Of a stretch of 57,204 bases of DNA, positions 424 through 23,489 are shown in pieces. The notes beneath the pieces are model-generated. The model did no database searches and was not told the DNA's origin. It saw only the letters and a program-made list of their open reading frames with translations. The stretch's first letter is position 1, and the number at the start of each line of letters is the position of its first letter. Location of the stretch: assembly GCA_030613055.1 (NCBI GenBank), contig JAUWMR010000024.1:1-57204 (forward strand). Reading direction: 5' to 3'. The translations under genes were made by a program, and so were the position numbers. The DNA is from Desulfobacteraceae bacterium. GTDB lineage: Bacteria; Desulfobacterota; DSM-4660; Desulfatiglandales; Desulfatiglandaceae.

Positions 424-1563
424 GTGAAACCAACCCTTGATTTCATCGGAAAAAACATACGATTCCTGCGGCGTCAAAGCAGTTGGACCCTTGCGGAATT
501 AGCCACAAGGGTCGGGATGAGCGAAGGGCCTTTGGGAAGAATAGAGCGGGGGGTCAATGCGCCCTCGGCATCCGTGATATATCGTCTGGCAAAAGTGTTC
601 GGCGTTTCAGTGAACGCGCTTTTTGCAGATGCTGAGCAGGACCTTCACACTATACGTTTTGAAGGAAAGCAGGATCCTTTCCTTGTGACCATCGGAAAAG
701 AAGACGCGATCCTTCCGGGCAGGGTTCAAAGTGCAGCAGGAGATATCATTGAGGCATTTCATGCCTTAGAAGATATCTGCAATGCCCGGAAACGTGCCAG
801 AATACCCCTTCTCATTCCCTTTGATCCGACCGAACAGGGCATGGAGGCCCTCTCGGAAACCGCGCGGCGTATCATGGAAATCCAACACGGCATAGTATTC
901 GACTATTTCGAACTATTTGAAAACCAGGGATTCAGGGTGATTGTCCTTCCCATGCCCAAAGACATAGACAGCTTTTCCTATTATGACCCCCCGAATCAGA
1001 ACGCTTTCTTTTTCCTGAACATCCGCAAGAATCCCGAACGACAGCTTTTCAGCCTTGCATATGAGTTGGGCAGGGTCTTTATCCTTACCTATACAATGCA
1101 ACAAGGCATAGAGTTGTTCGCGTCCCAGGACGAGAAAGGACCTCATGACACGAAAAAACCGTTTACTGCGCGGCGCGGGGCAAATCGTTTTGCCGCTACC
1201 TTTCTCATGCCCAAAAAATCCGTGTGCGACACAATAAACCAGTTAGGTATTCAAAAAAAACACTGGTCCTATGAATTGCTCCTCCGCATCAAACATCGTT
1301 TTGGCATTTCCGCTGAGGCGTTTCTATACCGGTTGGAAGAACTTGAGTTGATTGATCCTGCCTTAGTTGAACCCCTAAAAGAGAAGATCTATGATCATTA
1401 CGATAAAACAACCTTTGGTGAACCCGATTTCTCCAGGCGGCTGTTAACCCCCAACGGCAGGTTGTGGGACTTGGTACTCACGGGGAAAGAAGTGGAAGAG
1501 GGACGTGATGAGGTCATGAAAATTGAAGAAACACTGAAAAAGTGGAAGGTAGTAAAAAAATAA
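424..1563 (+). CDS. XRE-family regulator with ImmA/IrrE-like C-terminal domain
   Basis: The first ~60 residues form a Cro/C1-type helix-turn-helix (KNIRFLRRQSSWTLAELATR then a second helix ending GRIERG). The C-terminal half resembles the ImmA/IrrE (DUF955) domain common in phage and stress regulators, including the ANRFAATFLMP segment. The zinc motif expected as HExxH reads AYELGR near residue 211, so metal-binding and protease activity are probably lost and the domain may only sense or bind. No Shine-Dalgarno precedes either TTG 388 or GTG 424. I chose GTG 424 because TTG 388 lies inside a -35 box. It sits 800 bp before the cas operon on the same strand and could regulate itself, but a link to cas expression is only positional. 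Confidence 0.75.
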   Translation: MKPTLDFIGKNIRFLRRQSSWTLAELATRVGMSEGPLGRIERGVNAPSASVIYRLAKVFGVSVNALFADAEQDLHTIRFEGKQDPFLVTIGKEDAILPGRVQSAAGDIIEAFHALEDICNARKRARIPLLIPFDPTEQGMEALSETARRIMEIQHGIVFDYFELFENQGFRVIVLPMPKDIDSFSYYDPPNQNAFFFLNIRKNPERQLFSLAYELGRVFILTYTMQQGIELFASQDEKGPHDTKKPFTARRGANRFAATFLMPKKSVCDTINQLGIQKKHWSYELLLRIKHRFGISAEAFLYRLEELELIDPALVEPLKEKIYDHYDKTTFGEPDFSRRLLTPNGRLWDLVLTGKEVEEGRDEVMKIEETLKKWKVVKK

Positions 1564-1633
1564 TGAACCACTGAATTCTCAACACTTCTTCCCGCTTGGC
1601 GCAAGACGAGCTGGTTTTTGAAAGGGAAAAAAT

Positions 1634-2089
1634 ATGACAGACGCTAACATAATTGTTCCTGTTGAGCGCGTTGAAAGGACTATACTGATGATACGAGGCC
1701 AAAAGGTGATGATCGACGCTGATCTCGCAAAGCTCTATGGTGTAACCACTAAGCGGCTTAATGAACAAATCAGGCGTAATCGGGATCGTTTTCCAAATGA
1801 TTTCATGTTCCAGCTTACTGCTCGTGAAAAGAATGAGGTGGTCGCAAATTGCGACCACCTTTCTCAGTTAAAGTTTTCCACGGTGTTTCCTCGCGCTCGC
1901 CCTTATAGCAGCGAAGCTGCGTTATATAAAATCGCCAAGCGATTTTATGATGATGAGCAGTTCAAGATTGTCTTTGATGCAATACGCGCACTTATGGTTG
2001 AAACCGAAAAACCCAAAAGGAAGATCGGGTTTGTAGTCAAGGAACCAAAAGGCCGCTATGGCAAACGAACCAGGAAGAAATATTCATGA
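1634..2089 (+). pseudogene. ORF6N-domain protein, apparently internally deleted
   Basis: Residues 1-75 match the N-terminal DNA-binding part of ORF6N/KilA-N-type proteins: RGQKVMIDADLAKLYGV, then RFPNDFMFQLT and NCDHLSQLKFS. Family members then continue with a segment around AFTEHG and VVRAFVxLR. Here that segment is absent and KFS runs into an unrelated stretch (TVFPRARPYSSEAALYKIAK) before the usual tail (FKIVFDAIRALM, then KRKIGFVVKE). The frame stays open to 151 aa, so this is a deletion or replacement of about 60-80 codons rather than a simple frameshift. ORF6N proteins are typical phage or island cargo and probably bind DNA. Whether the shortened product folds is unknown. Confidence 0.6.
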
Positions 2090-2364
2090 CCCCGAAAACA
2101 GCAACCAGAATCCACCCTGCCCACAATTGAAGAGATCGAGGAGGAGCTCGGTAAAACCGGAGGGAGACTTTTGAAATGAAAAACGGTGTTTCTTTCCCCT
2201 CGTTTGACCTTATCTGTCAAAACCGTGTGGTAGAATACTATGAACAGTGGCCTCAATTCTAATGACAATAGACTGTTGTTTTAATAAAAATTAAGCTTTA
2301 GCATGGCTTCAGCGGTTAAACTTGAATCAAACAGATTATTAAGGATATCTCGACTTCCAATGCA
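2090..2364 (+). other. Upstream region of the cas operon
   Basis: No complete gene is seen. One short frame here (tail TIEEIEEELGKTGGRLLK, stop near 2176) looks like the C-terminus of a lost protein, so the ORF6N-cas3 junction is also a deletion scar. The region must hold the cas promoter, but I find only weak candidates, for example TTGACC near 2209 with TAGAAT 21 nt downstream, which is too long a spacer to trust. Confidence 0.3.
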
Positions 2365-5076
2365 ATGGATCTATCAGATAACAATTTAATATATCGTTAC
2401 TGGGGCAAAGCAGAAAAGGCATCCGACAAGGAATTCCCAGACCACCATTTGTTAGTATATCATTGCCTTGATGTTGCAGCGGTGGGGAATGTAATATTAG
2501 ACCGACAACCTGATTTGCTGCAAAAGTTTGAGAATCTATCTGGATTATATAGCAACTCATTTCTGAGATGGAGCACATTCTTGCTTGCCATCCACGATAT
2601 TGGCAAGTTTGCTGATGGTTTTCAGAACCTGAGGCCTGATTTATTTCAGCAACTACAAAAACGCTGTACTCAGATGCCATATAATGAACGCCACGATACC
2701 CTTGGGCATCGTTTTTGTTTAGAGTGCCTAACACCTGTATTTGTTAAAAAAGGAATTCAAGATCATGAGAATAATGGTATTGAGAAAGATTTGCAGGACT
2801 TGTTGGAACCCTGGTTTAGCGCGGTTACAGGTCATCACGGGAGACCGCCGAAGCCGGACATCCTTCCACAACCCATTCAAACTCAATTCCCTGATCAAGT
2901 TTGCAAAGATACGTTGACCTACGTGCAAGATATATTTGCCATGTTTTTGCCGAATGGTCTGCCATTCCAACCGGATGCTTATGACCATTTCTATGAGACG
3001 TTCAACCGGATTTCCTGGCTGATGGCTGGTCTGGCTGTTGCCGCCGACTGGATTGGCTCCAATAAACGATGGTTTCCTTACAATATGAAAGCTATGCCGC
3101 TTGCCGAGTACTGGGAGGATATAGCGATGCCGCAGGCAGTAAAGGCAGTTGCTGAATGTGGCTTGACTGCTCAGGCAATTGCGCCGTCGGCAGGCATGAA
3201 TATACTCTTCCCTGATATTACCATGCCAACACCATTACAACGGCTGGTGGAAGAGATTGAGATTAATAAGGGACCACAGCTTTTCATTATCGAAGAAGTG
3301 ACTGGTGGTGGTAAAACAGAGGCTGCACTCACCCTTGCCCATCGCCTAATGGCTAAAGGAGTGGCTGACGGTCTGTTTATGGCCCTGCCGACAATGGCGA
3401 CAGCCAACGCCATGCACACGCGCATACAGGCCGTTTACCGGAAGTTATTTTCGGATAATAGTGGACCTTCCTTAATACTGGCCCATAGCGCCAGTCAGAT
3501 GACTTTGGATCTGGAGAGGAAGAACCTTGCGGACAAAGGTTACGGTCATGGCCATAGCAGTGCATCTCAAGATTGCAACGCATGGCTTGCTGATAGCCGT
3601 AAGAAAGCCCTGCTGGCTCATGTTGGGGTGGGAACGATTGATCAGGCTTTACTTGCAATTTTGGCTGTCCGGCATCAGTCACTTCGTTTGTTGGGCCTTG
3701 CCCGCAAGTTGCTGCTCGTGGATGAGGTGCATGCATGCGACGCTTACGTACACCGCCTGCTTTGTACACTATTGCAATTTCATGCTGCACATGGAAATAG
3801 CGCCATTTTGCTGTCTGCAACGCTGCCTCAGGCCATGCGTGCTGAATTGATTAGAGCTTTTTCGGAAGGTGCTGGGACAAGAACTTTGGGGATAAAAAAT
3901 AATGCCTATCCATTGTTGACACATTTTTCAACTGAGGATATCCGAGAACTACCTGTAGAGGCGCGCACGTCCATTTCGGGACCTGTAGATATACAACCCC
4001 TTCATTCCGCCAATGAAGTACACCAAAGATTGCGAGAAGCGTTGGAGGCCGGCGGTTGCGCTTGTTGGGTGCGAAATACAGTCTTAGATGCGCTGGAGGC
4101 ATATCGTGAATGGGTGGGAATACTGGGAGATGATAAGGTGATGCTATTTCACGCCCGCTTTGCCCTGTCGGATCGCCTAAAGATCGAAAGGGATGTAATT
4201 CGCTATTTTGGACCGAATAGTAAGGAGGAAGATCGTAGAGGTAGACTCCTTATTGCGACCCAGGTGGTGGAACAATCACTGGATTTGGATTTTGATTTTA
4301 TGGTCAGTGATCTTGCACCTATAGATCTATTGATTCAAAGAGCAGGAAGATTGCACAGGCATGCACGAGGCCAAAGAAATTCGGCCATATTAGGCGTGTA
4401 TATGCCGGAGCCGATGGAAGACGCTGGGAAAGAGTGGTTCAAAGCGATGTTTCCAAAAGCGGCATGGGTGTATAAACATCACGGTCAATTATGGCTTACC
4501 GCCACGTGGTTATGTGAGCGAAAAGAATTTTCCATGCCTGATGATGCCCGCGAAATGATCGAACGGGTTTATGGAGATGAATCGCAGAAAGCAATCCCCA
4601 AGGACTTGATATTAGCAGAGGACCAGACAATGGGGCAAGATATGGCAGATCGAAGCCTCGCAAGCCTCAATAGTTTGAAACTTGACGATGGTTACAGGTG
4701 TACTATGACCAACTGGCAAGATGATGCTTTTGCACCTACCCGTTTAGGCGAACCCACGGTTACTGTACGGCTTGCACGTTTGAATGGCAAACAGCTTGTT
4801 CCCTGGTTCTCTAAAAATACAGGCCATGACTGGGAACTGTCGCAGCTTTCCATCCGTAAATCGCAGATTGCGAGTGAAGATTCAAATTACCTCCAGGAGC
4901 TTGTTGCGGCTGCAAGGGCGGTTATGCCTGATGAAGGACGCTATTGCGTAGTGATTCCAATGAAGGAAGGCGGAGATACATGGAGGGGACAGGCTTTGAA
5001 CAGCCAAGATCAAACAGTAGACGTAATATACAATAGTTTGATGGGTCTGGAAGTTAGCAAAGGAGGAAACACATGA
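2365..5076 (+). CDS. cas3: Cas3 HD nuclease-helicase, type I-E
   Basis: Cas3 is recruited by target-bound Cascade, nicks the displaced strand and degrades DNA 3' to 5' using its helicase. At 903 aa it has the usual single-chain size. The N-terminal HD nuclease shows H33 and the HD pair H77-D78 (AIHDIGKFADG). The superfamily-2 helicase follows: Walker A GGGKT at 314-318, DEVH at 453-456, SATL at 484-487 and the arginine-finger motif QRAGRLHRH at 658-666. All catalytic motifs look intact. The ATG at 2365 gives the expected N-terminus (RYWGKAE), although no good Shine-Dalgarno precedes it. The stop overlaps cas8e by 4 nt (ATGA), so the two are translationally coupled. Confidence 0.96.
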   Translation: MDLSDNNLIYRYWGKAEKASDKEFPDHHLLVYHCLDVAAVGNVILDRQPDLLQKFENLSGLYSNSFLRWSTFLLAIHDIGKFADGFQNLRPDLFQQLQKRCTQMPYNERHDTLGHRFCLECLTPVFVKKGIQDHENNGIEKDLQDLLEPWFSAVTGHHGRPPKPDILPQPIQTQFPDQVCKDTLTYVQDIFAMFLPNGLPFQPDAYDHFYETFNRISWLMAGLAVAADWIGSNKRWFPYNMKAMPLAEYWEDIAMPQAVKAVAECGLTAQAIAPSAGMNILFPDITMPTPLQRLVEEIEINKGPQLFIIEEVTGGGKTEAALTLAHRLMAKGVADGLFMALPTMATANAMHTRIQAVYRKLFSDNSGPSLILAHSASQMTLDLERKNLADKGYGHGHSSASQDCNAWLADSRKKALLAHVGVGTIDQALLAILAVRHQSLRLLGLARKLLLVDEVHACDAYVHRLLCTLLQFHAAHGNSAILLSATLPQAMRAELIRAFSEGAGTRTLGIKNNAYPLLTHFSTEDIRELPVEARTSISGPVDIQPLHSANEVHQRLREALEAGGCACWVRNTVLDALEAYREWVGILGDDKVMLFHARFALSDRLKIERDVIRYFGPNSKEEDRRGRLLIATQVVEQSLDLDFDFMVSDLAPIDLLIQRAGRLHRHARGQRNSAILGVYMPEPMEDAGKEWFKAMFPKAAWVYKHHGQLWLTATWLCERKEFSMPDDAREMIERVYGDESQKAIPKDLILAEDQTMGQDMADRSLASLNSLKLDDGYRCTMTNWQDDAFAPTRLGEPTVTVRLARLNGKQLVPWFSKNTGHDWELSQLSIRKSQIASEDSNYLQELVAAARAVMPDEGRYCVVIPMKEGGDTWRGQALNSQDQTVDVIYNSLMGLEVSKGGNT

Positions 5077-6692
5077 ATCTAATTACAGACGCATGGATTC
5101 CTGTACGCCGTAAAAGCGGCAAAGTAAATCGCATAGCGCCATGGCAAATAACCGAAGGTGAAGGTGAAGATGTCATAACTGTTCTTGCCGCGCCGAGACC
5201 GGATTTCAATGGTGCGCTAATTCAGTTTTTAATCGGCCTTTTGCAGACAACCTTCGCACCAAAAAACCCTCGTGAGTGGCGGAAATGGTTTCAACAGCCA
5301 CCAGGAACCGAGGAACTACGAGAGGCATTTGAACCGATTGTTTATGCCTTTGACCTAGATGGTGAGGGGCCACGATTTATGCAGGAAACTGATTTGAAAA
5401 ACTCAAAAAAAGCAAAGATTCAGCCAATCACCTATTTGCTTATTGATGCTCCCACAGATAACACTATTAAAGACAATATTGACCTATTTGTTAAGAGAAC
5501 AAGCCAAACCAAAACAGATGATGGTGTTATATTTTGTTTACCGTGCGCAGCAGCAGCCCTTTTTACAATGCAGACGTTTGCTCCAAGCGGCGGGGGTGGA
5601 GGTGGTGGAAAATTCACAAGTTTGCGTGGAGGTGGTCCATTGAGCACCATCGTTGTCGAAAACACGCTTTGGAAGACCTTGTGGCTTAATGTGATGGAAA
5701 TGTCCTATTTTTCTTCTAATAAGAATTATCCGATTGAGCATACCTTTCCATGGCTCCAACCAGGAAAATTTATTAGGTCAAAAAAAGGTAGAGCCATAAC
5801 TTCAGAGGAGATGGACCCTTTACACGTCTACTGGGGAATGCCAAGAAGAGTTTTTTTTGATATCAAGTGTGGTGAGATTGAAAAACAGTGTTTTGTCTGT
5901 GGATGTATGACCAACAAATATTCCGGAAACTATAAGGATTTGACAATGGGGATAAGTTATTTCGCGGGTTCGGGTAAAAACAAGAAACCTTCTTGGGTGT
6001 ATCCCTTACATCCTCTTTCCCCCTATTTTATTGATAAAGATGGAACGCCTACGGCAATTCATCCACAGCCTGGAGGGATCGGCTACCGACACTGGCTGGG
6101 ACTGATTCAGTCCGACCAGGGAAACAAAGGAAAACGGCAACCAGCCAGTGTTGTAGAGCATTTCATTCTCGAAAGGCGGAGGGATCTGAGGCTGTGGGCT
6201 TTTGGTTATGATATGGATAATATGAAGGCACGCTGCTGGTATGACAGCACCATGCCCTTAGTATTGGCCGATGACTCGATTCGGAAATCTTATGAGTTCC
6301 ATACAGCTGCATTAGTGAATGGAGCCCAGTATGTTTCCCGGCAAACACGTGCACAGATAAAAAAGACATTTTTCAAGCAAGTGACCGATGTGAAAGGCGA
6401 CCTTTCATTTGTTGAGTCTCGCTTCTGGCAAGAAACGGAGGGGGACTTTTTCGCCTATCTCAGCAAATTGCGCGATGCATTAAACAGAAGTGACGATGTT
6501 GTTCCTATCCTTAAAGAATGGCATAAGCGCCTTGCGAGTATGGCTGAAACCATCTTCAACGATGTTTCCCAGACTGGGGCATTTGATGCGGCAGATCCTA
6601 AGCGCATTGCACTGGCTTGGCGCGATCTGCAAAAAAGCATTTACAGCAAAAAACTACGCGAACAGCTTGGCCTACCAGCAAGAAGTAGGTAG
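5073..6692 (+). CDS. casA: Cas8e/CasA (Cse1), Cascade large subunit
   Basis: CasA recognises the PAM, helps seed the R-loop and recruits Cas3. The 539-aa product begins with the family signature NLITDAWIPV and carries the glycine-rich region (APSGGG...SLRGGGPLSTIV) that precedes the DNA-contacting loops. The glycine run is unusually long: seven consecutive Gly codons at residues 173-179 (nt 5589-5609), built of GGN triplets that could slip in replication. It overlaps cas3 by 4 nt. A Cys pair in CFVCGC and the C-terminal four-helix bundle region are present. I see no internal break. Confidence 0.94.
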   Translation: MNLITDAWIPVRRKSGKVNRIAPWQITEGEGEDVITVLAAPRPDFNGALIQFLIGLLQTTFAPKNPREWRKWFQQPPGTEELREAFEPIVYAFDLDGEGPRFMQETDLKNSKKAKIQPITYLLIDAPTDNTIKDNIDLFVKRTSQTKTDDGVIFCLPCAAAALFTMQTFAPSGGGGGGGKFTSLRGGGPLSTIVVENTLWKTLWLNVMEMSYFSSNKNYPIEHTFPWLQPGKFIRSKKGRAITSEEMDPLHVYWGMPRRVFFDIKCGEIEKQCFVCGCMTNKYSGNYKDLTMGISYFAGSGKNKKPSWVYPLHPLSPYFIDKDGTPTAIHPQPGGIGYRHWLGLIQSDQGNKGKRQPASVVEHFILERRRDLRLWAFGYDMDNMKARCWYDSTMPLVLADDSIRKSYEFHTAALVNGAQYVSRQTRAQIKKTFFKQVTDVKGDLSFVESRFWQETEGDFFAYLSKLRDALNRSDDVVPILKEWHKRLASMAETIFNDVSQTGAFDAADPKRIALAWRDLQKSIYSKKLREQLGLPARSR

Positions 6693-6726
6693 CATCAAGC
6701 ATAACAAAGACAAGAAAGGAGAAAAT

Positions 6727-7242
6727 ATGTCAGAGAAAAAGACTAAGCGACTGTTTCAGACAGGAGATGATTCCGTCGCCATTCTGCGCTCATGGTGGCA
6801 GTGGCTGGAACAGCATAGAGGTGATCGCGCGGTGTTGAGAAGGGCTTCAAGTCCGACCGAGGTAGTTTTTTCCCCAGCCTATCACCATTTGTTGGGCCAA
6901 CTTCAGCAACAGGAGTACAAAGTCAGTCGCGAGGCGCTGGCGGCAGTCGTGGGTTTGGCATCTCATGTAAAGGGGGATGTTGGCACGGACAAGAGCATTG
7001 CTCAGTTGATGGCTGGCTCCAGGCCGAGTGGAAGCGGAGCAAAGGTAAGCGGCCTCCGTTTTCGCCGTCTATTGGCTGTAACGGGGAGAGACGAACTGTA
7101 TCCCTTTTTAATCCGCGTGATTCGACTGCTTGATGGTAAAGTCAACCTATTAAGTCTGGCCAATTCCGCCTATTGGTGGAATGAAATTACCCGAAAGCAG
7201 TGGGCCTATGAATACTATGCAACCGCACCTACAGAACAATAA
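6727..7242 (+). CDS. casB: Cse2/CasB, Cascade small subunit
   Basis: CasB forms the dimer along the belly of Cascade that stabilises the displaced strand. The product is 171 aa, normal for the family, starting at ATG 6727 behind the Shine-Dalgarno AAAGGAG (6716-6722). Recognisable pieces are the N-terminal WWQWLEQHRGDRAVLRRA, the FSPAYHHLL segment and the central GLRFRRLLAV helix, followed by the C-terminal YWWNEITRKQWAYEYY. A longer frame opens upstream within casA, but the RBS and homology put the start at 6727. Basic residues on the conserved helices fit nucleic-acid contact. Confidence 0.92.
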   Translation: MSEKKTKRLFQTGDDSVAILRSWWQWLEQHRGDRAVLRRASSPTEVVFSPAYHHLLGQLQQQEYKVSREALAAVVGLASHVKGDVGTDKSIAQLMAGSRPSGSGAKVSGLRFRRLLAVTGRDELYPFLIRVIRLLDGKVNLLSLANSAYWWNEITRKQWAYEYYATAPTEQ

Positions 7243-7261
7243 AACAAGAAAGGAGAATATC

Positions 7262-8347
7262 ATGAGCACATTTATCCAATTACATCTTTTGACGAGCTAT
7301 CCACCGGCAAATCTAAATCGTGACGATTTGGGAAGGCCCAAAACTGCAATAATGGGTGGAGTACAGCGTTTGCGCATTTCGTCTCAGAGTCTCAAGAGAG
7401 CATGGAGGACATCAGATCTATTTGAGGAGGCATTGGCAGGCCATATTGGGATACGGACCAAAGAAAAAGGGCTTCAAGTTTTTGATCAGCTTAGACAATC
7501 GGGAGTAAATGAAAAACAGTCCAAAGAGTGGGCTATGGCAGTAGCGGGAGAGTTCGGGAAATTGAAGGGAAAAAGCGATAAGAATCCGTTACAGGACTTG
7601 GAAATTGAACAACTTGCACACTTCAGTCCGGATTAAAGCCAGGCCATTGAGGCCCTAATCAGGATCTTGATTAAGGAGAAACGCAAGCCAATAGATAAAG
7701 AATTGCATCTGTTGCGCAAGAAGCATAAGGGGGTGGATATTGCCTTGTTTGGCCGGATGCTAGCATCTAACCCTGAGTTCAATGTCGAAGCCGCTGTTCA
7801 GGTTGCCCATGCCATTACTGTACATAAAGTAGCAGTTGAAGATGATTATTTCACGGCCGTTGATGATTTGAACATGGGCGAAGAAGATATGGGAGCTGGC
7901 CATATAGGCGAGACCGAGTTTGCTGCTGGTCTGTTTTATCTTTATGTCTGCATTAATCGCGATTTGTTGCTCAACAATATTCAAGATGATGAAAAACTTA
8001 CAGTAAAGACCCTCCTAGCGCTGACCGAAGCGGCGGCAACCATCGCTCCCACCGGTAAACAGAATAGTTTTGCATCCCGTGCGTACGCATCATACATTCT
8101 TGCGGAGAAGGGGAGGAAACAACCGCGCACACTTTCCGTGGCATTCCTTAAGCCGGTTACAGGAACGGATATGCTCTCTGATGCAGTTGCTTCTTTGGAA
8201 AGTACACTTAACAACATAGACAAAGTGTACGGATCCACCTCTGAAGGCAAATATCAAGTTAATACAGCGAAAGGAGAAGGCACCTTTAAGGAACTGCTTG
8301 AGTTTGTGGTCTCACCATTATCTCAAAACAACGATAAGGAAGACTAA
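7262..8347 (+). pseudogene. casC: cas7/casC (Cse4) Cascade backbone gene, interrupted by an in-frame stop
   Basis: Cas7 polymerises along the crRNA (six copies in E. coli Cascade) and is indispensable for interference. The gene starts at ATG 7262 behind AAAGGAG with the classic N-terminus FIQLHLLTSYPPANLNRDD and RLRISSQSLKRAWR. Codon 125 is TAA (7634-7636), inside the stretch HFSPD-stop-SQAIEALI. The frame is the same on both sides and homology continues without loss of residues to ELLEFV and the end, so one nucleotide change (for example from CAA, GAA or AAA) explains it. Re-initiation could occur at TTG 7667, but no Shine-Dalgarno precedes it. The rest of the gene has not decayed, so the mutation is recent, is a sequence error, or is tolerated. 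Confidence 0.9.
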
Positions 8348-8349
8348 TC

Positions 8350-9087
8350 ATGAAAGAATATATGATCTTCAGGCTATATGGCCCCATGGCATCATGGGGC
8401 GACATTGCAGTAGGTGAAGTGCGACCAAGCTATACACATCCATCCAAGTCAGCGGTGTTGGGTTTGATTGCCGCAGCATTGGGAATCTCGCGAGACCAGG
8501 AATCATTGCACCGGCGCTTGGCTGACAGCTATGGTTTTGCTGTACGGATCGATAATGTTGGCCAACCATTATCAGATTATCATACGGCCCAAGTTCCACC
8601 TTCGGGGACAGGGCGCAAGAGAACTATTTTTGCCACACGTAGGGATGAGGTTGTAACCTTGCCCAGGGAAAAACTTAAAACCATTATTTCCAAACGTGAT
8701 TATCGTATGGATACCCTGGCTACTGTGGTGCTTTGGGAGCGGGCTTCACCTCCACACTCATTAGAAAAATTGGCTGAAGCTTTACAGCATCCAGGTTATG
8801 TGCTGTACCTTGGCCGTAAGTCCTGTCCGTTGGGTTTGCCTATGGAAGCCCAGGTTGTTGCAGCGGATACTCTCTTGGAGGCTCTGAGAAAGGCCAAGTT
8901 TACAGATTTTGTAGAACTGCGAAATTTGCCTGATACAGGCAGGTCGGCCCTTTACTGGGAAGAAAATGCGAATGCAGGTATACAACCTCAACACACCTTT
9001 GAGCGTCGCGATATACCGCTTTCCCGCCTGAGGTGGCAATTTGATGTGCGACTGGAATATCACGCATCATACCCTGCGGAGGATTAA
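8350..9087 (+). CDS. cas5: Cas5e/CasD, crRNA 5'-handle binding subunit
   Basis: Cas5 holds the 5' repeat-derived handle of the crRNA and caps the Cas7 filament next to CasA. The 245-aa protein begins MKEYMIFRLYGPMASWGD, the RAMP beta-strand and loop of the family, followed by TYTHPSKSAVLGLIAAALG-type helices (here SYTHPSKSAVLGL). It starts 2 nt after the cas7 stop, so its translation probably depends partly on ribosomes that finish cas7; the internal cas7 stop may therefore have polar effects. No break is seen. Confidence 0.93.
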   Translation: MKEYMIFRLYGPMASWGDIAVGEVRPSYTHPSKSAVLGLIAAALGISRDQESLHRRLADSYGFAVRIDNVGQPLSDYHTAQVPPSGTGRKRTIFATRRDEVVTLPREKLKTIISKRDYRMDTLATVVLWERASPPHSLEKLAEALQHPGYVLYLGRKSCPLGLPMEAQVVAADTLLEALRKAKFTDFVELRNLPDTGRSALYWEENANAGIQPQHTFERRDIPLSRLRWQFDVRLEYHASYPAED

Positions 9088-9090
9088 GCC

Positions 9091-9771
9091 ATGTATTTCA
9101 GCCGAATTATTTTAAAGAAAGATGCACAAAATGCTCCAGACTTCTGGAGTGTATTCCGAGACCCTTACTCCTTGCACCAGTCCGTATGGAGACTGTTTGC
9201 AGACCATGGTGACAGGAAGCGGGACTTCATTTACCGATTAGATCAAGAAGGAAAACGACCGCTTATTTACACGGTTTCTGAGCGAAAACCTGATATAAGT
9301 CTGGGGCTGTGGCATATTGAGACCAAAGAGTATGGACCGAAAATCAGGACGGATATGCAACTTGCCTTTATGTTGCGCGTTAACCCTGTGCGAACAAAGA
9401 GGGATGAAAACGGTAAGCAACATCGTCATGATGTGGTTATGGAGGCCAAAACGCGCCTTAAAGAACAAAGCACAGGACAAAATGAGCGTAGCCCTCTGGC
9501 TACGCTGGCGCAAGAGGAGGGGGTCAACTGGCTTTCAGCACGTGTAGAAAAACATGGGTTTGCCATAAATCCCATTCAAATTCGCGCTGATAGTTACCAG
9601 CAGCATCGTTTCTTCAAAAGGAAAGGAAGCAGGTCGATACAGTTCAGCACATTAGATTTTAACGGAATACTTGCGGTGATCGATCCTGAGCTTTTTATTG
9701 AAACCCTCTACAAAGGTATAGGACCGGCAAAGGGTTTTGGTTGCGGGATGATGATGGTAAAGAGGGCCTGA
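9091..9771 (+). CDS. cas6e: Cas6e/CasE, pre-crRNA endoribonuclease
   Basis: Cas6e cuts within each repeat at the base of its hairpin and stays bound to the 3' handle. The 226-aa product has the N-terminal MYFSRIIL strand, H29 in DPYSLHQSVWRLF (the position of the catalytic His in this family), a basic segment RTKRDENGKQHRHDV, and the C-terminal glycine-rich loop GIGPAKGFGCGM typical of Cas6. It starts 3 nt after cas5. The array repeat has a strong GC palindrome that suits Cas6e recognition. Confidence 0.93.
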   Translation: MYFSRIILKKDAQNAPDFWSVFRDPYSLHQSVWRLFADHGDRKRDFIYRLDQEGKRPLIYTVSERKPDISLGLWHIETKEYGPKIRTDMQLAFMLRVNPVRTKRDENGKQHRHDVVMEAKTRLKEQSTGQNERSPLATLAQEEGVNWLSARVEKHGFAINPIQIRADSYQQHRFFKRKGSRSIQFSTLDFNGILAVIDPELFIETLYKGIGPAKGFGCGMMMVKRA

Positions 9772-9793
9772 TTATGCAAATGGAGCTTTAGCC

Positions 9794-10009
9794 ATGTTCG
9801 CTTTTCTACAAGATCTGGATAATGATATCTGTGATGCTCTGTTGGTCCAGCTTCGCAATTTGTGGACCCATACATCCACTGCGATTGAAGGCAATACCCT
9901 GACCCTTGGTGAAACTGCATTTGTCCTTATATCATCTCGCAGTGGGAACCCTCACGGCCCGGAGAATATTTACTATTACCTAACCCGGGTAAACCGGAAA
10001 AGTGCCTAA
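9794..10009 (+). pseudogene. Fic-family protein, N-terminal fragment
   Basis: Residues 10-46 match the N-terminal region of Fic/DOC AMP-transferase proteins (LRNLWTHTSTAIEGNTLTLG, including the inhibitory-helix-like TAIEGN motif). The catalytic HPFxxGNGR is absent because the frame ends after 71 residues. The terminal codons and the TAA fall inside a degenerate copy of the 9-nt intergenic repeat AAGTGCCTA (see 34002-34060), so the gene appears cut at that repeat. It starts 22 nt after cas6e on the same strand and was probably cargo of the locus. Confidence 0.75.
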
Positions 10010-10206
10010 AGTGAGCTAAAGTTTGCAGTGCCTAAAGTTAAGGTGTCGCTTCGCTCCGTATCCCATATTAAAAAGGAGCCTTGACAACTTAAACAATATT
10101 TTCTGCGCGTTTTGAGCACAAATTTATTTATTCAGACAGTTAGGGCTCTTTAACCGTGAACCGTGAACGTTGAACCGCTTAACCTGGGTATTAAATAACT
10201 GGAGGG
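10010..10206 (+). other. Intergenic scar with short repeats
   Basis: No gene. It contains degenerate GCCTAAAGT units (10001-10041) and a run of the type GTGAACCGTGAACGTTGAACC near 10157-10180. A TTGACA at about 10081 could serve as a -35 box for the downstream Bro-N gene, but I find no matching -10 at normal spacing. Such repeats and the truncated fic gene mark this as a recombination junction inside the cas operon. Confidence 0.4.
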
Positions 10207-11043
10207 ATGATGGAGACAAGCATAGCTGTTTTCAGAGGTAAGGAAATCAGGAAGACGATTCACAACGATGAGTGGTGGTTTTCGGTTGTGGATGTATGCG
10301 CTGTCTTAACAAAGAGCGCTGATCCGGGAGCATACTGGAGAAAATTGAAACAAAGGCTCAAACAAGAAGGAAGTGAAGTCGTGACATTTTGTCACGGGTT
10401 GAAGCTGGTTGCTCCTGATGGGAAGTTCAGAAAAACCGATTGCGCCAACACCGAGGGCATCTTTCGCATTATTCAGTCTATCCCATCCCCGAAGGCCGAG
10501 CCCTTCAAGCGCTGGTTGGCCAAGGTCGGTTATGAACGCGTGCAGGAGATAGAGGACCCCGAGCTGGCAACCAAAAGAACCCGCGCTCTGTATAAGGCGA
10601 AAGGCTATTCGGACGACTGGATTGAGAAGCGAATGCGCGGCATCGCCATCCGGGAAGAGCTTACAGACGAGTGGAAAGAGAGGGAGGTAAGGCGCGAGAA
10701 GGAGTATGCGATACTAACCGCCGAGATAGCAAAAGCAGCCTTTGGTGTTACTCCCGGCGAACACAAAAAGCTTAAACGGCTGATTCGGGAAAATCTCAGG
10801 GACCATATGACGGACCTTGAATTGATTTTTTCCATGCTTGGAGAGGCGTCTACGACTGAGATAACGCGGGTGGATGATGCAAGGGGATTTAAGGAAAGCA
10901 AGCGTGCCGCCCACAAGGGAGGAGAGGTTGCCGGGAAGGCGAGAAAAGACCTGGAACGAAAGACCCGCAAGAAGGTTGTCTCCCCCGAGAACTATCTGGA
11001 CATTCCTCAGAAAAGACGGAAACAGTTGAATGAGAAGGAGTAA
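10207..11043 (+). CDS. Bro-N domain protein (phage antirepressor-like)
   Basis: The N-terminal ~110 residues form a Bro-N domain: FRGKEIRKTIHNDEWWFSVV followed by DVCAVLTKSADPGAYWRKLK and later DCANTEGIFRIIQSIPSPKA with FKRWLAKVGYERVQEI. Bro-N domains bind DNA and are common in prophage antirepressors. The C-terminal half is highly charged and basic, ending in a Lys/Arg-rich tail. Tandem ATGs at 10207 and 10210 follow GGAGGG immediately, so the second gives the better spacing. It sits between cas6e and cas1, 6 nt before the next gene, as part of an inserted co-directional block. A role in CRISPR function is not implied by the sequence. Confidence 0.8.
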   Translation: MMETSIAVFRGKEIRKTIHNDEWWFSVVDVCAVLTKSADPGAYWRKLKQRLKQEGSEVVTFCHGLKLVAPDGKFRKTDCANTEGIFRIIQSIPSPKAEPFKRWLAKVGYERVQEIEDPELATKRTRALYKAKGYSDDWIEKRMRGIAIREELTDEWKEREVRREKEYAILTAEIAKAAFGVTPGEHKKLKRLIRENLRDHMTDLELIFSMLGEASTTEITRVDDARGFKESKRAAHKGGEVAGKARKDLERKTRKKVVSPENYLDIPQKRRKQLNEKE

Positions 11044-11049
11044 GACGCC

Positions 11050-11646
11050 ATGATGGACAATCCGCAAAACAAACGAAGCGCAGAGGGTCACCAACTCATC
11101 CCGCCCCACGGCGGTTATCGTGAATTGCAATCTTATCAGATGTCGGAAATTGTCTATGATGCCACTGTTGTGTTTTGCGACCGGTTCATTTCAAAGCGCT
11201 CCCGCACCCATGACCAGATGGTGCAAGCAGCGCGCAGTGGAAAGCAAAATATTGCCGAAGGCTGCATGGCCTCCGGCACCTCGAAAAAATTTGAACTCAA
11301 GCTCATTGGAGTGGCGCGGGCGAGTCTTGAGGAGCTTCTACTGGATTTTGAGGATTATCTGCGGCAAAAGGGGCTGGCCCTTTGGGGAAAGGATCATGTG
11401 AAGGCTAAGGCAGTTCGAGGCCTTTGCTACAAAAAAAATAGGTCCTATAAGACATATAAGCCCTATATCGAAGATTCTTCTCCTGAGATCGCCGCCAATA
11501 CCGCTGTGTGCGTTATCCACCAGACGAACTATTTGCTTGATCAACAATTGAGAGTTTTAGAAAAGGAGTTCTTGAAAGAGGGCGGTTTCACAGAGAGACT
11601 CTATCGCACCAGGTCTCAAATGCGCAAACGGAGTTGGAATAAATGA
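11050..11646 (+). CDS. Four-helix-bundle protein (S23/IVP-like with suffix domain)
   Basis: The product resembles the four-helix-bundle proteins related to those encoded in 23S rRNA intervening sequences: [20 protein letters not shown], then [20 protein letters not shown] and [20 protein letters not shown]. The 198-aa length fits the version with a C-terminal suffix domain. Such proteins are found with diversity-generating retroelements and in islands; their biochemical role is unclear, and no reverse transcriptase is visible here. It follows the Bro-N gene by 6 nt, and its stop overlaps the ATG of the cas4 remnant (11643-11646), so the inserted genes and the cas4-cas1 part are joined as one operon. 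Confidence 0.8.
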
Positions 11647-11753
11647 ACTACACAGAAGACGACCTACTCCCCATTTCAGGTTTACAGCACCTGCTTTTTT
11701 GCAAACGCCAGTGCTCTTTGACAAATATAGAGCAGTTTGGGCGGAAATCATGA
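11643..11753 (+). pseudogene. cas4: cas4 remnant, N-terminal stump
   Basis: This 36-codon frame begins [20 protein letters not shown] and continues [11 protein letters not shown]. That is the hallmark beginning of Cas4 (ISxLQ, then FCxRQCxLxxIEQ), including the first iron-sulfur Cys region. It ends at TGA 11751-11753. The RecB-like nuclease core and the C-terminal Cys triad, roughly 150 codons, are missing before cas1 at 11809. Cas4 normally trims and orients prespacers; this stump cannot. Type I-E loci usually lack cas4, so its presence just before cas1e is unusual and suggests recombination with another CRISPR type or a lineage-specific I-E variant that had cas4. Confidence 0.72.
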
Positions 11754-11808
11754 GAGAAAGAAAAACCTTAGAAATGGAGAAGCAAGGTCCTGAAGGAGAC
11801 TTACCGTT

Positions 11809-11812
<4 letters not shown>
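11750..11812 (+). other. 20-codon linking frame between cas4 stump and cas1
   Basis: An ATG at 11750 overlaps the cas4 stump stop, and its TGA (11810-11812) overlaps the cas1 ATG. The peptide ([20 protein letters not shown]) resembles nothing I know. Its value may only be to carry ribosomes to cas1. The cas1 Shine-Dalgarno AAGGAG (11793-11798) lies within it. It could equally be a chance frame. Confidence 0.2.
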
Positions 11813-13066
<1,254 letters not shown>

Positions 13067-13126
13067 TAATTCGGTAGAATTTTTCACTTCCAATATCTAA
13101 TGTGAAATTAAGATGTTAGAGGAAGT
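13067..13126 (+). promoter_or_regulatory. CRISPR leader
   Basis: Sixty AT-rich bases separate the cas2 stop from the first repeat. By analogy with I-E systems, this carries the sequence read by Cas1-Cas2 for insertion and possibly an IHF site; the ATCTAATGTGAAATTAAG stretch (13095-13112) is a candidate but not a clear match. No obvious separate -35/-10 pair is seen, so pre-crRNA may be transcribed from cas2 side. Confidence 0.55.
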
Positions 13127-15716
13127 GTGTTCCCCACATGCGTGGGGATGAACCGGTGAAGTTGCCAACCGGCATCTTCCATTTTTGGTGTTCCCCACAT
13201 GCGTGGGGATGAACCGACCATTTGTAAAAACTGACAGACCCGTTATAAGTGTTCCCCACATGCGTGGGGATGAACCGTATTTCAAGAGAACGCGGCGGAC
13301 CCGTCACGAGTGTTCCCCACATGCGTGGGGATGAACCGCTGTTCGGGAGATGTATCCTCATGAAAAACAAGTGTTCCCCACATGCGTGGGGATGAACCGG
13401 TCAAACGAGCCAGACGAATGCGCAGTATACAGTGTTCCCCACATGCGTGGGGATGAACCGATTGGAGCGTACCCCTGAGACCCCTATAAACAGTGTTCCC
13501 CACATGCGTGGGGATGAACCGGTCTACACCATAGATTTCACGGTATACCGCGTGTGTTCCCCACATGCGTGGGGATGAACCGGCAGTTGACTTTCACTTT
13601 ATTACAGATCTACCGTGTTCCCCACATGCGTGGGGATGAACCGGTCAATATTAACACCGTCCTCATTTGTGAATGGTGTTCCCCACATGCGTGGGGATGA
13701 ACCGACAAAACCTTTCGGAATTTCAATGTCTAAATCGTGTTCCCCACATGCGTGGGGATGAACCGATGTATAACGATAGACACCGATGCCAGGAAAAGTG
13801 TTCCCCACATGCGTGGGGATGAACCGATGTAATGACAGACGTGCTCCCTTCTCCCGGTGTGGTCCCCACATGCGTGGGGATGAACCGCGTTGCAAGAGGA
13901 TTAACTTATGTCCGATCTTGTGTTCCCCACATGCGTGGGGATGAACCGCAGAAACGGAGGGTAAAGAGATGAACAATTAAGTGTTCCCCACATGCGTGGG
14001 GATGAACCGTGGTTTAGTGTCATCAACCCTTCTATCTACCCGTGTTCCCCACATGCGTGGGGATGAACCGATGGGAACATAGTTGGATGTTCCCTCAGTA
14101 ATGTGTTCCCCACATGCGTGGGGATGAACCGGAAAAAGGAAGAAACGTGCATCATGGTACCGTGTGTTCCCCACATGCGTGGGGATGAACCGATCTCGTG
14201 TGAGCTGATAGTCGCATTTACCGGTGTTCCCCACATGCGTGGGGATGAACCTTTACACTCGTAACTCGTCACTCGTCACTCTCTGTGTTCCCCACATGCG
14301 TGGGGATGAACCGGAGATGGAGGCTTCTTAAATGAGTAAAAAATGGTGTTCCCCACATGCGTGGGGATGAACCGACAAATAATACCGATACGTTCCTTTG
14401 TATTTTGTGTTCCCCACATGCGTGGGGATGAACCGGAGGCGGAGAGTATGGCCGGGGAACCTGTATTGTGTTCCCCACATGCGTGGGGATGAACCGCCCG
14501 ACGGGATCTTCACAAATCCGAACCTGAGGTGTTCCCCACATGCGTGGGGATGAACCGCATCGCAGGTATTCGAGCACTGTGCCCCGCTTGTGTTCCCCAC
14601 ATGCGTGGGGATGAACCGGGCCGCACCCAGTTGTGCGACGACTGGAAAGAGTGTTCCCCACATGCGTGGGGATGAACCGTCATATCCTCGCACGCCCTTG
14701 GATCTCTCCACGTGTTCCCCACATGCGTGGGGATGAACCGACCTGGAGCGGGTCGCAGTGCGCCCGGTGAAAGTGTTCCCCACATGCGTGGGGATGAACC
14801 GCGAGGCGTTACCAGGTGATTGTGAAATAGGATGTGTTCCCCACATGCGTGGGGATGAACCGATGGATAAACGTTTTTCCTATCCCGATCCTGTGTGTTC
14901 CCCACATGCGTGGGGATGAACCAGGGGAAGGGGTTGACATTTTAGTTTAACTGATGTGTTCCCCACATGCGTGGGGATGAACCGAACCCCTGACTCCGAC
15001 AAGCGGCCCTCATCCAGTGTTCCCCACATGCGTGGGGATGAACCGTTTAGCCGATTGCTTAACAGCTTCCAATTTAAGTGTTCCCCACATGCGTGGGGAT
15101 GAACCGCAGTTAATGAGCAAGGAATCCAAAGAAGAAATGTGTTCCCCACATGCGTGGGGATGAACCGAACCTACGGGAGAAAATAGGCGCTGAGTTATTG
15201 TGTTCCCCACATGCGTGGGGATGAACCGGCGCGACACAGGAACAAAACGACACGTTTAAAGTGTTCCCCCCATGCGTGGGGATGAACCGGTAAGGCTCAC
15301 ACCAGGGGCCGTAAATATATAGTGTTCCCCACATGCGTGGGGATGAACCGGTGGATAACTTGCAGTTTGCTGCGGCCAGATCGTGTTCCCCACATGCGTG
15401 GGGATGAACCGGAGGGAATGACAATGGAAAAAAGAGATGAAAAGTGTTCCCCACATGCGTGGGGATGAACCGGGAGTATACCAATATCTATGACATGCCA
15501 CAAAGTGTTCCCCACATGCGTGGGGATGAACCGAACGATTATAATTTTATCCCAAGTTTAGGTATGTGTTCCCCACATGCGTGGGGATGAACCGATATCG
15601 CCCAAACGAGCTAAGGAAGCTGGTAGGTGTTCCCCACATGCGTGGGGATGAACCGAGGCGTTTTTACAGTTGACCGAATATGCTGGCGTGTTCCCCACAT
15701 GCGTGGGGATGAACCG
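13127..15716 (+). CRISPR. Type I-E CRISPR array: 43 repeats, 42 spacers
   Basis: A 29-nt repeat begins GTGTTCCCCACATGC and ends GTGGGGATGAACCG; it contains the palindrome TCCCCACATGCGTGGGGA that forms the crRNA hairpin. Period is 61 (32-nt spacers), except spacer 18 (14193-14223), which is 31 nt. Repeats start at 13127 + 61n up to repeat 18 (14164), then at 14224 + 61n to repeat 43 (15688). Four repeats differ by one base: repeat 13 (13859, T4 to G), repeat 19 (14224, last base T), repeat 30 (14895, last base A), repeat 36 (15261, A10 to C). The leader is on the cas2 side, so spacer 1 is the newest. The distal repeat is not degenerate. Translated frames across the array ([16 protein letters not shown]) are artefacts. 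Confidence 0.98.
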
Positions 15717-17353: not shown

Positions 17354-18208
17354 ATGAAACAACAAGGACCAGAGTTAGGAAATCTCTCATCAAGGTTCTT
17401 CGCGTATATCCAGTTAAAAAAGAAGGATATCGTCCACACTGGGGAATTATCCCCAATATTAGGTATCACTGGATCGCAGGAGCGCGATCTACTACGTCGC
17501 CTGTCAGGCTCGGGCTGGATCGTCAGACTGAAGCGCGGAGTATATCTCGTCCCTCCTCGTATACCGGCTGGCGGCAAATACAGCCCGGGGGCTGCCCTCA
17601 TTCTTCAGAAGCTAATGGAAGAAGACGACGGTAAATACCAGATCTGCGGGCCAACCGCGTTCAATTTCTACGGCCTAGATGACCAAATTCCGAGTGTCAC
17701 CTATGTTTACAATAACCGCATTTCAGGTAGTCGTGCAATAGGGAGGCTAACATTCCAATTTATAAAAATCGCGGACGAGCGACTTGGAGCCATAAATCCT
17801 CTCCGAACCCGAGAGGGTGCCGAAGTTATCTATTCTTCCAAAGCCAGAACCCTTATGGATGCTGTCTATGACTGGTCCCGCTTTAATAGTTTGCCCCGAG
17901 GATATGACTGGATCAGACAGGAAATCGAAAAAGATTTAAAGATTGCGTCCAAATTAGTCGAGGCTACCGTTCAGTATGGAAATCAGGCCACGGCCCGGCG
18001 AATAGGGTACCTGTTAGATAGTTTCATTCAAACTTTTAGAATTATAAATCGGCTCCAGCGGCAACTCAGCGATTCCAGTGCCCTGATCCCCTGGATTCCA
18101 GGCAGGACCACAAAGGGAACGGTCAACCGCAAGTGGGGGGTCATCGTCAATGTGGAGCGGGACGCTGTTAAGCAAGTAAATAATTCAACACGACCAGCAA
18201 CATTGTGA
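17354..18208 (+). CDS. AbiEi-family antitoxin/transcriptional regulator, orphan
   Basis: The 284-aa product has the N-terminal winged-helix of AbiEi (KDIVHTGELSPILGITGSQE, then LSGSGWIVRLKRGVYLVPPR) and the C-terminal AbiEi domain (YQICGPTAFNFYGLDDQIPS, later SKARTLMDAVYDWSRFNSLP). In type IV AbiE modules this protein opposes the AbiEii nucleotidyltransferase. No AbiEii gene follows; the next gene is a flavodoxin. The last ~11 codons and the stop come from the start of the repeat at 18181, so the native C-terminus has been replaced. It may persist as a stand-alone regulator. Confidence 0.75.
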   Translation: MKQQGPELGNLSSRFFAYIQLKKKDIVHTGELSPILGITGSQERDLLRRLSGSGWIVRLKRGVYLVPPRIPAGGKYSPGAALILQKLMEEDDGKYQICGPTAFNFYGLDDQIPSVTYVYNNRISGSRAIGRLTFQFIKIADERLGAINPLRTREGAEVIYSSKARTLMDAVYDWSRFNSLPRGYDWIRQEIEKDLKIASKLVEATVQYGNQATARRIGYLLDSFIQTFRIINRLQRQLSDSSALIPWIPGRTTKGTVNRKWGVIVNVERDAVKQVNNSTRPATL

Positions 18209-22136: not shown

Positions 22137-23489
22137 ATGGATGAAGGGCTTTTAAAACAGATGCGTTTTGAGGCAGAGGAGATATTCAGGTGTTCTCTTG
22201 AGGCCGTGGATCCCTATGAGGCTGTGAAGCGTTTTGTGCGGGTTCAAGGCGACAGGTTGATTTTAGGCACTAAAGACCGGCCACCGGTCGAGCTTGATTT
22301 GACAAAGTTCAGGCGAATCTCCCTTGTGGGTGGCGGAAAGGCCACAGCACCCATGGCCAGGGCCATGGAAGATCTTCTCGGGAACAGGATTCATAAAGGG
22401 GTGATCGTAGTCAAATACGGTTTCACTGAAAAGCTGCTTCTTACGGATATTATCGAGGCAGGACATCCTCTCCCGGACACAAATGGAGTAAAAGGGACAG
22501 AAAAAATCCTCGATTTCCTTAAAGGCGCGGGTGAAGATGATCTGATTTTTTCCCTGATATCCGGGGGCGGCTCAGCCCTGCTTCCGTATCCTGCCGGAAA
22601 AATTACCCTTGAAGAAAAGCAGGAACTCACGCTCAGTTTATTAGAGTGCGGAGCCGGTATTGATGAAATCAATGCGGTAAGGAAACACATCTCGTCATCC
22701 AAGGGAGGACAGATGGCAAGAGCGGCCTATCCTGCCACCATAATAAACCTGATGCTGTCTGATGTGGTGGGAGATAAGATGGACGTTATTGCATCAGGCC
22801 CTTTTGTGCCTGACAGCTCAACATTCAAGGATGTCATGGAGATCCTTGAAAAATATGATTTAAACGATATTCCCCGTGTAATCCGTGAGCACATAAAGGC
22901 TGGTCTCGAAGGACAAATCCCCGAAACTCCAAAGGCCGATGATTCCATATTTGACCGGATCAATAATTTTGTCATAGGGAGTAATATAATTGCCCTGGAA
23001 GCTGCAAGGGAAAAGGCGGAGCAGGTAGGATACAAGGCCCTGATTCTCTCCTCTATGGTGGAAGGTGAAACCAGGGAGGTGGCGCGTGTTCACAGTGCGA
23101 TTGCAAAAGAGATCGCAAGGACGGGTCTGCCCGTTTCTCCGCCTGCCTGTATTATTTCCGGAGGCGAAACCACGGTGACCATTCGCGGCAAGGGTTTTGG
23201 CGGCAGAAATCAGGAATTTTGCCTTGCCGCGGCACTTGATTTAGCCGGGCTTCCATCTCGTGTGGTTGTGCTCAGCGGAGGGACAGACGGAAACGACGGT
23301 CCAACGGACGCGGCCGGGGCAATAGTTGATCCTGATACTGTGAGCCGGGGGGAAGCGCTTGGTATGAAGGCAATTGAATTCCTTGATAATAACGATGCCT
23401 ACCACTACTTCGAAAGGACGAACGACCTTTTGATGACAGGACCTACCAATACGAATGTGATGGATGTCAGACTTGTGTTAGTGCGGTAA
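22137..23489 (+). CDS. Glycerate 2-kinase (GckA/TtuD, MOFRL family)
   Basis: The 450-aa protein has the DUF4147 N-terminal domain (RISLVGGGKATAPMARAMED, GHPLPDTNGV, LISGGGSALLPYP) and the C-terminal MOFRL domain (CIISGGETTVTIRGKGFGGR, LSGGTDGNDGPTDAAGAIVD). It phosphorylates D-glycerate to 2-phosphoglycerate. Family length and motifs are complete. It lies next to a minus-strand cluster for glycosylglycerate synthesis, so it may recycle glycerate released from that osmolyte, which is an inference from position. Confidence 0.92.
   Translation: MDEGLLKQMRFEAEEIFRCSLEAVDPYEAVKRFVRVQGDRLILGTKDRPPVELDLTKFRRISLVGGGKATAPMARAMEDLLGNRIHKGVIVVKYGFTEKLLLTDIIEAGHPLPDTNGVKGTEKILDFLKGAGEDDLIFSLISGGGSALLPYPAGKITLEEKQELTLSLLECGAGIDEINAVRKHISSSKGGQMARAAYPATIINLMLSDVVGDKMDVIASGPFVPDSSTFKDVMEILEKYDLNDIPRVIREHIKAGLEGQIPETPKADDSIFDRINNFVIGSNIIALEAAREKAEQVGYKALILSSMVEGETREVARVHSAIAKEIARTGLPVSPPACIISGGETTVTIRGKGFGGRNQEFCLAAALDLAGLPSRVVVLSGGTDGNDGPTDAAGAIVDPDTVSRGEALGMKAIEFLDNNDAYHYFERTNDLLMTGPTNTNVMDVRLVLVR

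Follow-up and report, generated by a model that had tools for sequence, protein, structure and literature searches.

A type I-E CRISPR-Cas locus from a Desulfobacteraceae bacterium carries a premature stop codon in cas7e, and the newest spacer of its array matches the bacterium's own chromosome next to an AAG protospacer-adjacent motif (PAM). In the reading we prefer, whose probability we put slightly under one half (about 0.47), a recent nonsense mutation in cas7e has turned off the interference arm and left the adaptation genes and the array intact, the self-targeting spacer having been acquired first and the mutation being the escape from it. Cascade activity is likely to be absent; we infer this, as we infer the order of events.

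The interrupted cas7e gene

The window analyzed here is the whole stretch of 57,204 nucleotides, which constitutes an entire contig (C29) of the genome. The cas7e (casC) gene lies on the plus strand at 7262..8347. It starts with ATG at 7262 and contains 361 codon positions ahead of the terminal stop, the internal stop included. The initial annotation had reported a TAA at 7634-7636, corresponding to codon 125, and this codon is present in the given sequence (7634..7636, plus strand). It splits the gene into two open reading frames, the frame being open after codon 125 up to the TAA at 8345-8347. When the stop was read through, an NCBIfam profile search matched the product to TIGR01869 (Cas7/Cse4/CasC) over model positions 1-325 of 325 with 342 bits, and the closest solved chain, PDB 9uer_E, aligned over residues 1-349. 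A functional Cascade calls for an uninterrupted cas7e reading frame, which the window locus lacks, and no second copy of cas7e was found in the genome (4.26 Mb, 97 contigs, 95.6% complete).

Alignment to relatives, which had been proposed as a check, showed Glu at the position of codon 125 in 28 of 31 Cas7e proteins that are intact. Measured against the same 31 proteins, the interrupted gene keeps 31 of 32 near-invariant columns, 16 of the 32 being positioned after the stop. Sequence identity is also alike before and after the stop: 65% and 59% with the Cas7e of G039, a relative described below, 59% and 59% with that of Serratia, and 56% and 54% with that of a Desulfovibrio MAG. These results rule out long-term decay of cas7e and uphold the earlier view that the gene has suffered no other loss. 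Because there is no decay on either side of the stop, either the loss is recent or the TAA is an error. The stop could be an assembly or sequencing error, or the allele of a minority strain, in which case Cas7 would be intact and the self-target would be held off by other means, for instance an anti-CRISPR or silencing. Both the TAA and the self-match come from the consensus of a draft genome of 97 contigs with a contamination estimate of 3.98%, a single base change would suffice, and cas7e has no other lesion. We nevertheless hold this explanation to be unlikely, given the evidence from the self-targeting spacer and from related loci presented below.

Functional Cas7 might also still be made, through readthrough of the TAA or through re-initiation that yields a split protein. 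Re-initiation near TTG 7667 had been put forward, and this TTG does exist in frame with cas7e, followed by an unbroken frame in which the conserved residues downstream of the stop are kept. However, the spacing from AGGA to the TTG is too short by eye, leaving no well-spaced ribosome-binding site. Nonsense suppression by a tRNA, another suggestion of the initial annotation, found no support: ARAGORN, applied to all 46 tRNA loci, gave no anticodon UUA, CUA or UCA. A change of genetic code is ruled out, because TAA ends 19 of the 38 clear genes in the window and is the commonest ordinary stop there. The relative G039 carries a cas7e stop of its own with no nearby restart, and production of functional Cas7 would leave the self-target unexplained. 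We therefore regard readthrough or re-initiation as very improbable.

The rest of the locus has the gene content of type I-E. All eight cas genes match their families near full length, cas7 only with the stop read through. Upstream of cas7e on the plus strand are cas3 (2365..5076), cas8e/cse1 (5073..6692; TIGR02547 profile positions 1-502 of 504) and cse2/casB (6727..7242; TIGR02548 positions 1-166 of 167). The cas3 product, a 903-aa HD nuclease and helicase, covers positions 5-872 of 878 of the PRK09694 profile with 515 bits, which is below that profile's cut-off of 569, and it scores above the cut-offs of TIGR01587 and TIGR01596. Downstream on the same strand are cas5e (8350..9087; TIGR01868 positions 2-225 of 230), cas6e (9091..9771; TIGR01907 positions 1-207 of 208), cas1e (11809..12732; TIGR03638 positions 2-268 of 269) and cas2e (12710..13066; TIGR01873 positions 1-87 of 87). 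Thus, cas1, cas2, cas3, cas5, cas6e and cas8e, which had been described as intact, are full length against NCBIfam models. An AT-rich leader of 60 bp (13067..13126, plus strand) runs from cas2e to the first repeat, its orientation being inferred from the E. coli-like polarity of the repeats. The array itself (13127..15716, plus strand) adjoins cas1-cas2 and, in agreement with the 43 repeats first counted, contains 43 repeats of 29 bp and 42 spacers, with a spacer length of 32 bp.

Several other features of the region were observed. The cas8e gene encodes a run of seven glycines from mixed GGN codons, and the homologs in G039 and another relative, G026, do not have a run of that length. The slot between cas6e and cas1 (10207-11646) holds a Bro-N gene (PADLOC PDC-S13) and a gene for a four-helix-bundle protein. 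In relatives, the same slot contains a DUF1016/PDDEXK nuclease (G039; PDC-S02; L044 8181-9221) or a Fic protein (G026; L046 3934-4527), or is empty (G012), and in Pelobacter carbinolicus it is occupied by a putative toxin-antitoxin pair (PMC2923632). Comparison of window positions 1483-13126 with the G026 locus (L046) showed that the end of an ORF6N gene, the start of cas3, the 3' end of cas6e and cas1-cas2 are closely alike, and that the effector genes between them are far more diverged. Judged from this sequence comparison, the window locus looks like a mosaic, as though the effector cassette had been swapped relative to G026. The ORF6N gene (1634-2089) appears internally deleted compared with the G026 copy. 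The CRISPR locus is flanked by an AbiEi-like gene and by HTH plus M78-peptidase (RmrA-like) coding sequence (17354-18208 and 388-1563).

A newest spacer that matches the chromosome

We searched the array against its own genome and found that spacer 1 (13156..13187, plus strand) matches the minus strand of contig C73 at 23384-23417. The match covers 31 of 32 spacer bases, and 33 of 34 bases when the bordering bases are included (E 3.6e-8). This self-targeting spacer is new evidence that the initial annotation overlooked. Spacer 1 adjoins the 60-bp gap after cas2 and, together with the repeat polarity, this position identifies it as the newest spacer. Its sole mismatch is at position 31, at the PAM-distal end, and the seed is fully matched. 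The bases ahead of the protospacer, CCACAAAG, give the PAM AAG, which is a consensus interfering I-E PAM in E. coli (PMC6568314); the PAM rule applied here is that of E. coli and may not be the rule of this system. Repeats 1 and 2, which flank the spacer, are perfect. In register, the protospacer flank has just one base in common with the repeat, its customary final G, so there is no extended pairing into the repeat. Spacer 1 therefore combines a near-perfect match that includes the seed, an AAG PAM by the E. coli rule and intact repeats, as expected of a lethal self-target.

The protospacer lies inside a 1360-aa open reading frame of C73 for which no Pfam match was found. Its neighborhood, by eye on the open reading frames, reads as housekeeping (recG, purM, selA and tatA) and not as prophage. 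The tetranucleotide composition of C73 correlates with that of the window's chromosomal part at r 0.97, compared with 0.41-0.85 for other genomes, and on this shared composition contamination was rejected as the source of the self-match. The first 29 bases of spacer 1 had no exact match in a viral contig collection. A phage origin for the array spacers was also considered, and no convincing match was obtained; the similarity to two phage records is broken up into many pieces, with identities averaging 75-81%. Spacer 19 (14253-14284), which is similar to an (ACTCGTC)n repeat scattered through the genome, was rejected as a second self-target because it has at least six mismatches, two or three of them within the first three positions.

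A cell that carries spacer 1 should not survive with a working Cascade, so that each of the two findings, lesion and self-target, accounts for the other. The usual reasons for tolerating a self-spacer that were checked, a fault in the PAM, the seed or the repeats, do not apply here. The self-spacer is therefore evidence for loss of interference that is independent of the cas7e sequence, which argues against an error at codon 125. The initial annotation had raised a state of "memory without interference", and this is the best reading now that the newest spacer is seen to target the chromosome next to an AAG PAM, with a single mismatch at the PAM-distal end. In the sequence of events that we favor, spacer 1 would have arisen when Cas1-Cas2 captured a chromosomal fragment of the cell itself that has a functional AAG PAM, and targeting of the chromosome by Cascade-Cas3 would then have been lethal. 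A cell lacking full-length Cas7 could have lived on as the ancestor of the lineage. Translation of Cas7 would end after residue 124, and the crRNA-holding Cas7 filament presumably could not form. Mutation of a cas gene is a documented escape from self-targeting, and a broken cas gene is among the remaining reasons listed for tolerating self-spacers (PMC6990116). Counting against escape through cas7e, type I-E escapes at the bench have been reported mainly as loss of the (plasmid-borne) spacer (PMC6990116), and G039 shows that cas7e can be lost with no visible self-target.

Alternatively, the stop may have come first through neutral loss of interference, with Cas1-Cas2 continuing to add spacers that were not purged, so that the cell could tolerate the self-spacer. 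Spacer acquisition, also from the chromosome, needs no more than Cas1 and Cas2 (PMC6990116), the self-spacer is the newest in the array, and the loss of cas7e in G039, where no self-spacer was seen, also fits. But a long period of unpurged acquisition should have added more self-spacers, and only one is present; moreover, the undecayed state of cas7e before and after the stop makes the loss recent in either case. We consider this order of events somewhat unlikely, although one genome does not fix whether the spacer preceded the stop (escape) or followed it (tolerance).

To obtain a rough base rate for self-matches, we searched the newest two spacers of 36 arrays against the 35 genomes that carry them, in which cas7e is intact. 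None of these spacers had a near-perfect self-match flanked by AAG. The only self-matches outside arrays were one in G164, with four mismatches, and two in G059, both exact but bordered by GCG and CCA where the PAM would be. The G059 spacers concerned, the newest two of an array in which they also occur as duplicates, hit that genome's own chromosome without an AAG, and G059 has an intact cas7e (L125 3942-4220; L151 1957; L152 1959). An early survey found self-targeting in 0.4% of spacers and 18% of CRISPR-bearing genomes, and a later figure is about 7% of genomes (PMC6990116). Given these published rates and a control that spans two spacers per array, the link between the cas7e stop and the self-spacer is suggestive and not statistically proven.

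Interruption of cas7e in related genomes

Cas7e is present in 47 genomes of a phylum sample of 395, and the window gene is the only near full-length match with a stop inside it. In the window's bacterial family, 8 of 46 genomes have a Cas7e match. A single unbroken full-length cas7 open reading frame was found in 45 of the 47 I-E loci, the exceptions being the window and G039. Stretch-edge truncations aside, these two cas7 genes are the only broken ones among cse2, cas7, cas5, cas6, cas1 and cas2 in the 47 loci; most of the 40 control stretches fetched were chosen by their cas7 matches, which biases this comparison against seeing broken cas7. Other seemingly partial cas7e genes in the phylum were discounted: contig ends truncate those of G191 and G270, and that of G423 lies in one long open frame.

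G039 belongs to the same family as the window genome but to another genus, and its Cas7e is 61% identical. Its gene has a TAA of its own at codon 263, giving an open reading frame of 262 aa (L044 11309-12097, minus strand), and its cas genes other than cas7e are open. The short array of G039 had no self-match in its own genome, so self-targeting was rejected as the cause and the cas7e loss in G039 is unexplained. Two interruptions of cas7 in one family, with cse2, cas5, cas6, cas1 and cas2 unbroken in 47 loci, are a pattern that random error would not favor. On a draft consensus, the assembly-error alternative of the initial annotation keeps some probability, which the self-targeting spacer lowers. 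It is also conceivable, though we think it quite improbable, that cas7e is a recurrent weak point in this family, with interference lost twice independently by single nonsense changes at different codons of cas7e alone and the adaptation genes and array kept; such a state could be a reversible off-state that is still recording.

Comparison with known systems

Inactivation of cas genes in connection with autoimmunity is already known, and the window locus is a clean natural case of it. CRISPR loci caught between the gain of a lethal self-spacer and the loss of the locus are rarely so clean, with one stop, one licensed newest self-target and the rest intact. The locus therefore offers a concrete test of whether autoimmunity drives interference loss in wild bacteria, and it is a warning that a full cas gene content by homology is compatible with a dead locus.

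The window locus resembles type I-E Cascade systems in its gene order (cas3-cas8e-cse2-cas7-cas5-cas6e-cas1-cas2-array), 29-bp repeats and 32-bp spacers, and differs from them in the cas7e stop at codon 125 and the two extra genes between cas6e and cas1. Natural self-targeting together with damaged cas genes has been described (PMC6990116), including a type I-E system of Ligilactobacillus salivarius with a split cas3 (PMC11288051). As in the window, a chromosomal self-target is paired with a lesion in an interference gene, but the window lesion is in cas7e and its self-spacer is leader-proximal with an AAG PAM. Pelobacter carbinolicus has a similar set of cas genes, and its spacer 1 is a type I-E self-spacer against a chromosomal gene, hisS, with a CTT/AAG PAM as in the window; the self-protospacer is followed by CTT, and the spacer inhibited growth of a related host (PMC2923632). 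In P. carbinolicus, however, the self-spacer occupies the trailer end, the position of the oldest spacer, and a homolog is listed for every Cascade gene, whereas the window locus has an interrupted cas7e and a self-spacer in the newest position.
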